In this document: in pieces, positions 32,085 to 36,125 of the stretch | Layout of the letters: each line of letters starts with the position of its first letter | Position numbering within the stretch: position 1 is the stretch's first letter | Origin: Candidatus Bipolaricaulota bacterium | GTDB lineage: Bacteria > Bipolaricaulota > Bipolaricaulia > UBA7950 > UBA9294 | Direction of reading: 5' to 3' | Assembly: GCA_018817505.1 (NCBI GenBank) | Contig: JAHITR010000029.1 | Coordinates: 1 to 37,099 of the forward strand | Length of the DNA: 37,099 nt | Program-made: the position numbers and the translations under genes | The notes under the pieces: generated by a model | What the model was told of the DNA's origin: nothing | Databases searched by the model: none | What the model saw: only the letters and a program-made list of their open reading frames with translations

Positions 32085-32680
32085 TGCCCACCGTGCTGTC
32101 CTACAACCATCCCGACACCATGTCGTTCGTACATGTGGCTCTAGAGATGGGACAAACACTGATCTTCCCAACAGACACCGTCTATGGCCTCGGAGGCAAC
32201 CCGTGGGATGAGCGCACACTCAACCATGTGCGGAGGCTCAAGGATCGGACAGCAGATCAACCCTTCACGCTCCACCTTTCGAGTGTCGAAAGCATTTATG
32301 GTTACGCCGATTGCACGCCGCAGATTCAGGCGATCATCGAGCAGCTGTTGCCCGGCCCCTACACCCTGTTGCTTCCCGCTGGAGCCAAAGCGCCTTCATC
32401 GGCAGTGTCTGAGGGGAAAATCGGCATACGTGTCCCGGATCATCCATTCTTTGCCTGTTGTCTGCGTCGCCCCGTATTCGCCACATCTGTGAATCGACAT
32501 GGCGAACCGCCACTCAATGACGTAAGCGATATCATTGAAAGCTTCTCAGAAGTCGATCTGATCATTACCGGCGAGGTGTCAGGAGAATCCTCAGCGATCA
32601 TTGACTTGACGCAGACGCCCTACCGCGTACTGCGTGGATCGTTGACTGAAGCACAATCGCACCTGCTAGAACAGGAATAG
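32081..32680 (+). CDS. tsaC: L-threonylcarbamoyladenylate synthase (TsaC/YrdC/Sua5 family)
   Basis: 199 residues; ATG 32081 overlaps the ychF stop by 4 nt. It makes threonylcarbamoyl-AMP for tRNA t6A37. Motifs: FPTDTVYGLGG near 29-39, the ATP-site region RRLKDRTADQPFTLHL (usual KxRP is replaced by KDRTADQP), LPGPYTLLLPA, IGIRVPDHPF and SAIIDLTQTPYRVLRG. Length fits TsaC, without the Sua5 extra domain. A HypF-type carbamoyl role is unlikely for a single YrdC domain. The 3' end overlaps the convergent EamA gene by 15 nt. Confidence 0.9.
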   Translation: MMPTVLSYNHPDTMSFVHVALEMGQTLIFPTDTVYGLGGNPWDERTLNHVRRLKDRTADQPFTLHLSSVESIYGYADCTPQIQAIIEQLLPGPYTLLLPAGAKAPSSAVSEGKIGIRVPDHPFFACCLRRPVFATSVNRHGEPPLNDVSDIIESFSEVDLIITGEVSGESSAIIDLTQTPYRVLRGSLTEAQSHLLEQE

Positions 32681-33577
32681 GCAGGCGACGCCGCCGATTG
32701 CGAGCAACGTTCCTGCCACTGCTCGCGGTGACACCTTCTCCTTGCGGACGAGAACCGAGAACGCGAGCAACAACACAGGCGGAAGTGCCATCAGAGTCGA
32801 GGCAATTCCGATCTTCGCGTTGGCCAATGCCATCATGGACAACGTCACACCAGCAAATGGCCCCGCCACCGCCCCGCCCATCATGGAGAGGGCTGCTTTG
32901 CGATTTCGAAAGACATCGAGATCCTTCTTCCACCGACCGCCGACGAACGCAGCCAGCCACACAGCGAGGGTGGCCGCCAAAATCTGAACAACGTTTGCGG
33001 AGAGCGCAGGGAACTCGCCACCCAACGCTTGTTTGGACAGGATATAGCGCAGGGACTGGGTGGCAACCGTGCCCAGCGCGAACAACACGCCGATCACGAT
33101 GTGCCTTCGTGCCCCAGGCTCTTCGCCTGCCGGACGCGCCGAGATGACCAACGCAATACCGGCCACAGTGACCCCGGCTGACAGCATTTGCGCTCCCGTC
33201 AGCCGTTCTCCAAAGATACCCCACGCCAGAATGGCACTGGTTACGGGAATCAAGGCAGTCACCAGCGATGTTCTGTGTGCGCCAAGATGCAGCAGCGCGC
33301 GGAATAAGAAAGCATCAGAAATCGAAAACCCGATGACACCCGACAGGGTGAGCCAGCCCCATCGCCCCAAGTCAGCACCAAACGGCAACGGCGTACGATA
33401 GACGATCCAATGAACCATCAGCAGCAACACAACGGCTACGGTCAGCCGCCAGCGATTGAGCCATTTGGGGCCAGCCAGGCGTACAGCAGTCGTGAACAGA
33501 AGGTAGCTGGCTGTCCAGCAACACGCAGTCGCTAGACCAGCCAACTCTCCGGGATAGGCTGACAACACGGTCGACAT
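32666..33577 (-). CDS. EamA/DMT-family permease, ten membrane helices
   Basis: 303 residues with about ten hydrophobic helices in two EamA halves (roughly 10-140 and 158-303). Family marks: GFSISDAFLFRALLHLGA, TALIPVTSAILAWGIFGERL in the first half, and LMALPPVLLLAFSVLVRKEK with the final GTLLAIGGVACLF in the second. These transporters usually export or import amino acids, nucleotides or other metabolites. The start ATG shares one base with the tnaA stop (TAATG), so it is co-translated with tryptophanase; tryptophan, indole or a related amino acid is a reasonable substrate guess, not shown. Confidence 0.88.
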   Translation of the reverse strand: MSTVLSAYPGELAGLATACCWTASYLLFTTAVRLAGPKWLNRWRLTVAVVLLLMVHWIVYRTPLPFGADLGRWGWLTLSGVIGFSISDAFLFRALLHLGAHRTSLVTALIPVTSAILAWGIFGERLTGAQMLSAGVTVAGIALVISARPAGEEPGARRHIVIGVLFALGTVATQSLRYILSKQALGGEFPALSANVVQILAATLAVWLAAFVGGRWKKDLDVFRNRKAALSMMGGAVAGPFAGVTLSMMALANAKIGIASTLMALPPVLLLAFSVLVRKEKVSPRAVAGTLLAIGGVACLFLF

Positions 33578-34962
33578 TACGTTCGATGCAAGGGCATGAA
33601 GCGGGCCACGAAGTGTCGTAGCGGACCCTCACCCTCAATCAGTCGATAGCCGGGCAATGTGGGCGCCGCTTGAGCCACCGCTTCGGCGGCATCAATCACC
33701 ACATCAAAATGCTCTCGCATGTACATCCGGCGGGGAATGGCCAAACGCACCAATTCCATTTCCGGGTACACAACGTGTCCATCTGGCGACTCATGGGCAA
33801 ACATCACGCTGCCAATTTCCACCCCGCGGATTCCGCCTTCGAGATAGAGGGCGTTTGCTACGGCCAGCGCAGGGAATTCAGCTTGCGGAATCGAAGGCAC
33901 CATCGCACGCGCGTCCATGTACACCGCATGCCCGCCAATCGGCTCGATGATCGGAACGCCAACGGATTTCAATCCTTCACCCAAATAGCGAGCCTGTCCT
34001 ATTCGGTCTGCCAAATAGGAGGGTTCGAGGACTTCACGAAGGCCGACAGCGATCGCTTCCAAGTCCCGGCCTGCCAATCCACCGTAGGTGGGGAATCCTT
34101 CCATGAGAATCAGCCGTTCCCGCGCCAGCTCGAATGTCTTGAGGTCGTTCATCGCCAGAATGCCGCCGATGTTGACCAATCCGTCTTTCTTGGCACTCAT
34201 GGTCATGCCGTCGGCGAGCGAGAACATTTCTTTCGCAATTTCCGCGGGCGATTTGTCAGCATAGCCTTGCTCGCGCTCGCGAATGAAAAAGCTGTTCTCG
34301 GCGAATCGGCAGGCGTCAATGAAGAAAGGAAGACCGTGTGCATGAGCAATCTCACTGATTTCGCGCAGATTGGCCAGCGACACCGGCTGCCCGCCACCGC
34401 TGTTGTTGGTGATCGTCATCATCACCATGGGAATGCGTTCCGTCCCCACATCGGCGATGAAAGCGCGCAGTTTGTCCGCATCCATGTTCCCCTTGAACGG
34501 GTGGATCAGCGACGGATTAAACGCCTCATCGATCACCAGATTGACCGGCTCGCCCCCATTGGCAAGGATGTTGGCCCGCGTTGTGTCGAAGTGCATGTTG
34601 TTGGGGATGACGTCGCCAGGCTTGATCATGGCCGAGAACAGGACGTTTTCAGCTGCCCGTCCTTGGTGCGTGGGCAGGACGTAGGTGAATCCAAAAATGT
34701 CGTCGACAGCTTCACGAAACCGCGCGTAGCTGCGACTGCCTGCGTAGGACTCATCGCCGACCATCATCGCCGACCACTGGTTTTGGCTCATGCCCCCCGT
34801 TCCTGAGTCCGTCAGCAAATCGACATACACGTCCTTTGCCTGAAGATGGAACAAGTTGTAGCCAGCCTGTTGAAGGCGTTGTTTACGTTCTTCAGCTGAC
34901 AAGATCGAGATCGGCTCAATCACTTTGATGCGATAGGGTGGCAGTACTCTGTCTTTGCGCAT
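33577..34962 (-). CDS. tnaA: tryptophanase (tryptophan indole-lyase)
   Basis: 461 residues; GGAGGAAGGA directly upstream of ATG 34962. PLP beta-eliminating lyase of the tryptophanase/tyrosine phenol-lyase family: YAGSRSY (73-79), [11 protein letters not shown] (96-106), [11 protein letters not shown] (214-224), MSAKKDG with Schiff-base Lys259, and the C-terminal LRHFVARF. Two residues separate the activities: here FDTT (Asp126) and VEIG (Ile383) match E. coli tryptophanase, where tyrosine phenol-lyase has FTTT and MERG. It should degrade tryptophan to indole, pyruvate and ammonia. A leader ORF with one Trp codon lies upstream, and an EamA permease is coupled downstream. Confidence 0.9.
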
Positions 34963-35011
34963 AATTCCTTCCTCCTCTTTGACTCATGAGTGTGCCCGTG
35001 CGTGTCGATGT

Positions 35012-35131
35012 CTACTGCGAGGCACGACGTAGGAAGGGAGGATGGGGAATATTCCGTCGGACGAGTCTGAGCGGATCGGCGTTCGATCGCACCCAGAAGG
35101 GTCGTTCCCTGCGTGATCCTGAGCGCTTCAT
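35012..35131 (-). CDS. candidate leader peptide of the tnaA operon
   Basis: A 39-codon open frame on the tnaA strand, from ATG 35131 to TAG 35014-35012. GAGGAGA lies 6 nt upstream, among the better ribosome sites in the window. It follows a promoter match and ends 49 nt before tnaA. The peptide is Arg-rich and has a single Trp (residue 13, in RPFWVRSNADP) and a Pro-rich segment near the end (IPHPPF). In E. coli and Proteus, tnaC is a short leader with one essential Trp upstream of tnaA that stalls ribosomes when tryptophan is abundant. Sequence identity to TnaC is not evident; it could be an unrelated small protein. No intrinsic terminator lies between leader and tnaA. Confidence 0.45.
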   Translation of the reverse strand: MKRSGSRRERPFWVRSNADPLRLVRRNIPHPPFLRRASQ

Positions 35132-35164
35132 AGAATCTCTCCTCGAAATCGGGAAGTCATGAGA

Positions 35165-35193
35165 ATGGTAGGACAATCCCGCCTCTCGAGCAA
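35165..35193 (-). promoter_or_regulatory. candidate promoter for the leader-tnaA-permease operon
   Basis: On the minus strand, -35 TTGCTC (35193-35188), 17-nt spacer, -10 TACCAT (35170-35165). It would start transcription about 25-30 nt before the leader ORF. Confidence 0.42.
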
Positions 35194-35220: not shown

Positions 35221-35250
35221 TTGACGCGCTGACAAGATAACGGCTACAGT
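35221..35250 (+). promoter_or_regulatory. candidate promoter for the HEAT-repeat gene
   Basis: -35 TTGACG (35221-35226), 18-nt spacer, -10 TACAGT (35245-35250), 26 nt before ATG 35277. With the leader ORF and the divergent tnaA promoter this accounts for the 314-nt spacer 34963-35276; nothing else was seen there. Confidence 0.5.
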
Positions 35251-35276
35251 TGATCAGCAAGCAGTCTGGAGACTCG

Positions 35277-36125
35277 ATGCGAGATCAAATCAGCCAACTT
35301 ATCGAAACAGGCGAACATCCCGCCCTTTCTCTGCTGCTCGATGGCGCGGATATGTCCACCCTTCGCTTTGCCGCTAAGCAATTCGTGTCAGCGCTTCAAG
35401 AGAATAACGACGACTTGTTGCAGTCCATTCCCAAATTGATGAATGAATCGTCGACCGGCGCGCACCACTTGGCTTGCCAGCTCATTCCCTATGCCTATGA
35501 AATCAAACGGCGGCAAGCCGTCGGGTTTCTGCCTCGGCTCATCGAATCCACAGACTGGACCGTTCGCGATGCGGCGTGCGAAGTGACGGGCCGTCTGTTA
35601 CGCGATGACTTTTCTCGAATGCTCCCCGTTCTAGAAGCCTGGCGATCACGGCAGTCAAGCAATATGTCGCGCGCGCTGGCCATCGCAACCATTCGAGCCG
35701 CTGACCCGATGCATCTCGAACGCGCTGATCCGCTATTAAGACTGCTCGAACCGTTGTTGTCCGAACGCGACCCCATCGTTCGCAGGAATTTGGGCCCGTC
35801 AGCCATCGGCACCACGCTGCTTGCCCATTACCCGAGTCAAACCTTTGAGTACTTGGCCAAATGGTCCACATCCTATGACGCGCAGACGCTATGGAACGTC
35901 GCCATGGCCTTCACTTCGCCAGCTGCCGTTCCCATCACCAAGAAAGCACTGATTGTGCTGCGCAAGCTGTCCCTCGACGAACGCCGATTGGTATGGCGGG
36001 CCGTTGCATCTGCCATGTGGAAGTTGGGACGCAAGAGACCTGATTTGATCCGCCCCGAGCTCGCCCGCTGGTTGGAGGACGAACGCCGCGTCAACGTGGC
36101 GCGAGAGGCCATCAAGCATTTGTAG
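35277..36125 (+). CDS. HEAT-repeat / DNA-alkylation-repair-like helical protein
   Basis: 282 residues from ATG 35277 (GGAG 6 nt upstream). Entirely alpha-helical with repeated two-helix units: STDWTVRDAACEVTGRLL, SNMSRALAIATIRAAD, ERDPIVRRNLGPSAIG, DAQTLWNVAMAF and LVWRAVASAMWKLGRKRPD. The WTVRDAACE and RRN/PSAIG units resemble the HEAT-like repeats of the AlkD/DNA-alkylation-repair family. No catalytic residue can be confirmed, so it may be a HEAT scaffold. The ATG at 35250 region is in frame but has no ribosome site. It lies 67 nt before the acetyltransferase gene, with no terminator between. Confidence 0.65.
   Translation: MRDQISQLIETGEHPALSLLLDGADMSTLRFAAKQFVSALQENNDDLLQSIPKLMNESSTGAHHLACQLIPYAYEIKRRQAVGFLPRLIESTDWTVRDAACEVTGRLLRDDFSRMLPVLEAWRSRQSSNMSRALAIATIRAADPMHLERADPLLRLLEPLLSERDPIVRRNLGPSAIGTTLLAHYPSQTFEYLAKWSTSYDAQTLWNVAMAFTSPAAVPITKKALIVLRKLSLDERRLVWRAVASAMWKLGRKRPDLIRPELARWLEDERRVNVAREAIKHL

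Follow-up and report, generated by a model that had tools for sequence, protein, structure and literature searches.

A conserved leader peptide before tryptophanase in Candidatus Bipolaricaulota: a putative regulator convergent in role with TnaC

TnaC is the textbook example of a nascent peptide that allows the ribosome to sense a free amino acid. Other leaders serve different ends: those of the ErmCL type respond to an antibiotic ligand and control a resistance gene, while codon-starvation attenuators of the trpL type have several Trp codons and an intrinsic terminator. TnaC itself carries W12, D16, (I19) and P24, that is, W-x3-D-x7-P with the Pro before the stop codon (PMC8429421, PMC10941005), and in its L-Trp pocket in the 23S rRNA the bases U746, A752, A2058 and U2609 matter (PMC8429421). 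In ErmCL-type leaders, arrest on the short leader releases the Shine-Dalgarno (SD) sequence of the next gene, a mechanism quoted in PMC10219788. In the cutFOG operon of Rhodobacter capsulatus, the leader is CutF, an exported copper-sensing protein with a signal sequence and a CxxxC motif (PMC9973294).

Here, we consider a leader ORF in a window of 37,099 nucleotides, the whole stretch of DNA that was analyzed, from a Candidatus Bipolaricaulota genome (G000, genus g1; an assembly of 2.66 Mb in 241 contigs). The features of the locus are as follows.

32666 to 33577, minus strand: EamA/DMT transporter gene, directly behind tnaA (PF00892; weak YddG-type match)
33577 to 34962, minus strand: tnaA, tryptophanase (NCBIfam NF009709, 675.6 bits; PF01212; tryptophanase-type residues)
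35012 to 35131, minus strand: leader peptide ORF, 39 codons, ATG to TAG (translation, homologues, leave-genus-out HMM, pN/pS)
35093 to 35095, minus strand: single Trp codon of the leader, codon 13, position RR-12
35139 to 35144, minus strand: SD of the leader ORF, GAGGAG, 7 nt 5' of the leader ATG
35165 to 35193, minus strand: promoter, with TTGCTC at 35193-35188, a 17-nt spacer and TACCAT at 35170-35165

The leader translates as MKRSGSRRERPFWVRSNADPLRLVRRNIPHPPFLRRASQ, followed by the stop codon TAG, and the tnaA ATG at 34962 lies 49 nt past that stop. A sequence-only reading had described an ORF of this length and position on the tnaA strand, with a strong ribosome site and one Trp codon, all of which is borne out by the coordinates, the translation and the homologues. 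The promoter that it proposed at 35193-35165 fared less evenly. Its coordinates are right and TTGNNN-N17-TACC[AC]T is identically placed in 9/9 loci with enough sequence, the window's included, but the match to consensus is weak (3/6 and 4/6) and the promoter scan did not list it. A terminator scan found no intrinsic terminator, an Rfam scan of the spacer returned one chance match and nothing else, and the leader peptide had no match in Pfam or NCBIfam.

The solved structures nearest to TnaA are those of tyrosine phenol-lyases. At the aligned positions of the tyrosine phenol-lyase residues T124, R381 and F448, the window's enzyme has D, I and H, as in tryptophanases; an identity as tyrosine phenol-lyase was rejected on these replacements. 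The TnaA proteins of the relatives likewise have D/[I or V]/H, except that the second position is not matched in three. The EamA transporter is probably in the same operon as tnaA and, given its weak match to the aromatic amino acid exporter YddG, may export tryptophan or related aromatics. All nine leader-bearing loci examined retain the tnaA-eamA order, and some leaderless relatives have it as well.

For comparison, we used Candidatus Bipolaricaulota MAGs from uncultured bacteria. These assemblies are fragmented and incomplete, and the leaders are few (n=10). Genes of the tnaA type are present in 47/60 relatives, and the upstream spacers of most were inspected. The leader occurs in the window's genome and nine relatives, at the same place before tnaA, in four genera:

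genus g1: G000, G003 (leader truncated by the contig end) and G004
genus g2: G005
genus g13: G016, G028 and G022
genus g9: G012, G020 and G031

It is confirmed as a real, conserved, peptide-coding ORF with a strict link to tnaA. Across the carriers, it spans 34 to 39 codons and ends 36 to 64 nt before tnaA. Conservation of the frame and of the distance to tnaA, two checks named in the sequence-only reading, therefore holds, with purifying selection in frame. A profile of the ten leaders, run against 100 genomes of the phylum, finds these ten loci, one per genome and always before tnaA (next match E = 0.004), although the ten match this profile by construction. Free of that circularity, a profile of the seven leaders outside g1 ranks the window's ORF top among 1030 frames (E = 4.7e-9; next 0.49), and profiles of single genera also put it first (g9 alone, 1.5e-7; g13 alone, 1.5e-5). 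A degenerate DNA pattern for RRNIPxPPF had 38 matches in about 85,000 species. Five of these fall in a short ORF with the leader's C terminus, all in Bipolaricaulota; the other 33, in frames lacking that C terminus or the context, were judged to be chance. A scan of viral contigs for the leader pattern gave one chance frame only. In the literature searched, NIPHPPF had no match, and Bipolaricaulota and tryptophanase came together in one paper, which was off topic.

The conserved part of the peptide is its C-terminal end, as listed here together with the two arms of a hairpin that involves the same codons.

35030 to 35059, minus strand: C-terminal motif RRNIPHPPFL, a putative arrest motif, nearly invariant in the ten leaders while synonymous codons vary
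35034 to 35050, minus strand: 5' arm of the hairpin, overlapping the motif codons and predicted to pair with the tnaA ribosome site (folding; in silico opening by a ribosome at the Phe codon)
34964 to 34979, minus strand: 3' arm of the hairpin, including the tnaA SD (GGAGGAAGGA) (sequence, folding)

In the alignment, most leaders have [DN]P[LI] at RR-6 to RR-4, followed by [VA]RRNIP[HCR]PPFL and usually two residues to the stop; the end of the motif varies as PHPPF, PCPRF, PCPPS and PRPPF. The N termini are variable, and strong conservation is C-terminal, a pattern that would fit an arrest peptide. Hence the Pro-rich end, remarked upon in the sequence-only reading, is the very part of the leader that is conserved. 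Over all leader pairs, changes at codon positions 1/2/3 number 324/305/613; for the final ten codons of the conserved block, the counts are 48/79/288. Within genera, pN/pS in the leader frame is 0.13 (g1), 0.36 (g13) and 0.24 (g9), as against 1.07 to 2.88 in the other two frames. The excess of third-position changes and the low in-frame pN/pS argue that the peptide itself is under selection. Conservation as a pure RNA effect was rejected because synonymous positions vary freely.

The Trp residue is less constant. It sits ungapped at RR-12 in g1, g2 and g13, but all three g9 genomes have Ile or Ala there, so that the conservation of Trp, a further check named in the sequence-only reading, is seen in three genera and fails in the fourth. 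Additional Trp residues outside RR-12 occur in G004 (two) and G022 (one). Since g9 lacks Trp, neither the residue nor its codon can be the whole sensor.

Compared with E. coli tnaC-tnaA-tnaB, the arrangement is alike in that a short leader ORF with its own promoter precedes genes for tryptophanase and a transporter, and Trp is present in most of the leaders, as in TnaC. Thus, the tnaC-tnaA-like layout that had been proposed stands as regards a leader ORF with its own promoter before tnaA, but not as regards the gap, which is 36 to 64 nt (49 in the window) rather than the 220 nt with a Rho site in E. coli. The peptides also differ. The leaders have 34 to 39 residues rather than 24, and W-x5-[DN]P-x4-RRNIP (with no W in g9) in place of W-x3-D-x7-P-stop. 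They have no Pro-stop arrest site, their conserved Pro-Pro lying at least 3 codons before the stop, and, unlike TnaC, are associated in most members with a predicted SD-pairing hairpin. Homology to TnaC was rejected: the leader profile scores TnaC at -1.7 bits, below 1337 of the 1666 shuffles reported. This agrees with the earlier remark that the peptide is not recognisably TnaC. On the ribosome side, the pocket bases U746, A752, A2058 and U2609 are identical in the leader-bearing G000, G004 and G012, which is permissive but not proof. Separately, the 23S rRNA of the leaderless G036 has U746G and A752C relative to E. coli.

Other known systems share single elements with this locus. As in ErmCL-type translational attenuation, a ribosome arrested on the leader would free the SD of the gene that follows; the peptide is a different one, and we know of no recognisable motif common to the two. 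The arrest peptides of the RAPP class (ApdA, ApdP and CruR) resemble the leaders in having Pro-Pro near the C terminus with Arg nearby, but the R-[AGS]-P-P or RxPP module of that class (PMC10951233) is absent and the conserved end reads P-H-P-P-F. Among systems studied in detail, CutF and cutO come closest in having these parts: a Pro-rich, stall-like C-terminal motif lies next to basic residues, and the downstream SD is shielded by a hairpin located between the leader and the gene for the enzyme (PMC9973294). The Bipolaricaulota leader, however, has only 34 to 39 residues, lacks a signal sequence and CxxxC and stands before tryptophanase. From sequence comparison, we regard it as a new, lineage-specific, putatively regulatory leader that is convergent with TnaC in role and not a member of its family. 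It may resemble TnaC in sensing and probably differs in output.

The hairpin, of which the sequence-only reading had made no mention, appears in the minimum free energy folds of most members, in which the PPFL codons and beyond pair with the tnaA SD region. Because gaps in the MAFFT alignment of the spacers ruled out counting covariation by column, we tested the pairing with recodings, permutations and sliding windows. The pairing is stronger than in most synonymous recodings of the same peptide in G000 (fraction 0.057), G003 (0.026), G004 (0.011), G031 (0.008) and G028 (0.036), with 0.12 to 0.89 in the remaining members, and cognate pairs of arm and SD beat swapped ones over the ten species (0.0047 of permutations) and over g1, g2 and g9 together (0.045), the recoding and permutation tests both counting related species as independent. 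Dinucleotide shuffles of the arm gave 0.013 in G000, 0/300 in G003 and G004 and a marginal 0.05 in G031, the rest being not significant. In 7/10 leaders, no upstream window pairs with the SD as well as the arm does. Pairing is no better than the null in G005, G016, G012, G020 and G022, and for G000 alone the dinucleotide z-score of the whole hairpin is -0.9. Sequestration of the SD is thus well supported in the window's genus, where the pairing exceeds what the peptide requires, and suggestive in single members of two other genera (G031 and G028); as a general feature of the leaders it is unproven, the outcome being mixed across members. In silico, the unpaired fraction of the SD in G000 rises from about 0 in the free RNA to 0.56 with a ribosome that has Phe in the P site, and a ribosome at the stop codon leaves it at 0.0.

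Constraint on the C-terminal peptide, a Pro-rich end following basic residues and an SD-closing hairpin at that same end together fit translational attenuation, and we lean, if only slightly, toward the leader being a cis-acting regulator of the tnaA-eamA operon of this kind. The transcript would start just 5' of the leader. The PPFL codons and beyond would form the 5' arm, with the tnaA SD in the 3' arm, such that tnaA would be closed as long as no ribosome occupies the end of the leader. The nascent C terminus [DN]PLxxVRRNIPHPPFL would then slow or arrest the ribosome translating it, most likely in the presence of abundant tryptophan, the substrate of the enzyme, and the paused ribosome would cover the 5' arm, free the tnaA ribosome site and switch on tryptophanase and the transporter. 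Arrest, tryptophan as the ligand and induction rather than repression are what we infer for this scheme, tryptophan being a reasonable candidate for the signal of a tnaA leader. Weighing against it are the five members in which the pairing does not exceed the null, the low z-score of the hairpin in G000, the lack of Trp in g9 and the fact that PHPPF is not among the known strong arrest motifs (RAPP type). In its fullest form, the proposal is more tentative, and we would put it somewhat short of even: an independently evolved tryptophan-sensing arrest peptide, [W]x5[DN]PLxxVRRNIPHPPFL, would detect free tryptophan together with the ribosome, hold the SD hairpin open and thereby switch tnaA on, one genus having a version that lacks Trp.

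If true, this would be a second solution, unrelated to TnaC, of the problem that TnaC solves. A leader of this enzyme that is unrelated to TnaC and comes from a distant phylum of uncultured bacteria would help to separate what a ribosome essentially needs for sensing tryptophan from what is historical in TnaC. RRNIPHPPFL offers a new C-terminal motif for structural work, and the leaders with and without Trp are a ready-made natural experiment.

An unlikely alternative is transcription attenuation as with TnaC, in which arrest would shield a Rho-loading site and block termination before tnaA, the hairpin being secondary. Both TnaC (PMC8429421) and CruR (PMC9426467) act by shielding from Rho. 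A Rho-based scheme has to be kept in view because the 3' half of the window's leader is C-rich and G-poor, as rut sites are (78-nt window, C-G = +18, C 0.37, G 0.24). Yet C exceeds G only weakly in G016 and G012 (+6), a spacer of 36 to 64 nt, as opposed to 220 nt in E. coli, leaves little room for Rho to load after the ribosome has left, and the SD pairing goes unexplained. Plain translational coupling, whereby translation of the leader merely opens the tnaA ribosome site with no sensing or arrest, would account for the short spacer and for the pairing of the SD with the leader end. It needs no specific peptide, however, whereas RRNIP, situated mostly 5' of the pairing arm, hardly varies even though its codons do, and we consider coupling alone improbable. 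Alternatively, the product of the ORF might be a small, stable protein with a target in trans, such as TnaA or the transporter, as selection on the peptide and its constant company with tnaA-eamA would allow. That strong conservation is confined to the C-terminal part of a peptide of 34 to 39 residues matching no Pfam or NCBIfam family, that its conserved end is encoded by the same codons that form the SD-pairing arm and that G007 lost the leader and kept tnaA make such a protein hardly probable. Very improbable, finally, is sensing of tryptophan starvation, in which a ribosome waiting at Trp-13 would leave the hairpin closed and tnaA off when tryptophan is scarce: the Trp holds a constant position without gaps in g1, g2 and g13 and the direction of control would be physiologically sensible, but all three g9 leaders are without a Trp codon, and a single one makes a weak starvation sensor. 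Unlike attenuators of the trpL type, the window's leader has one Trp codon rather than several and no intrinsic terminator.

With respect to the history of the leader, the leader-bearing genera fall in one clade of the TnaA tree (SH-aLRT 96) with one leaderless member, G007, and two changes account for the distribution of the leader on this tree. The divergent gene and tnaA of G007 are only about 135 nt apart, and given this short spacer the leader was probably lost within the leader clade, with tnaA kept. A TATCAT box now stands close before tnaA in this natural leader deletion.

Some features of the surroundings extend beyond the leader-bearing loci. The divergent gene (35250-36125, plus strand in the window), encoding a HEAT-repeat or DNA-alkylation-repair-like protein, is retained upstream of tnaA in much of the family, including members that have no leader. 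A second TnaA-type gene, 46 to 48% identical and without a leader, occurs in G005, G020, G033, G036 and others. The tnaA genes of genera g3, g6 and g10 come immediately after a gene for a protein with GIHFYF at its C terminus, resembling a beta-barrel protein; in these genera, tnaA is therefore probably expressed from another promoter.
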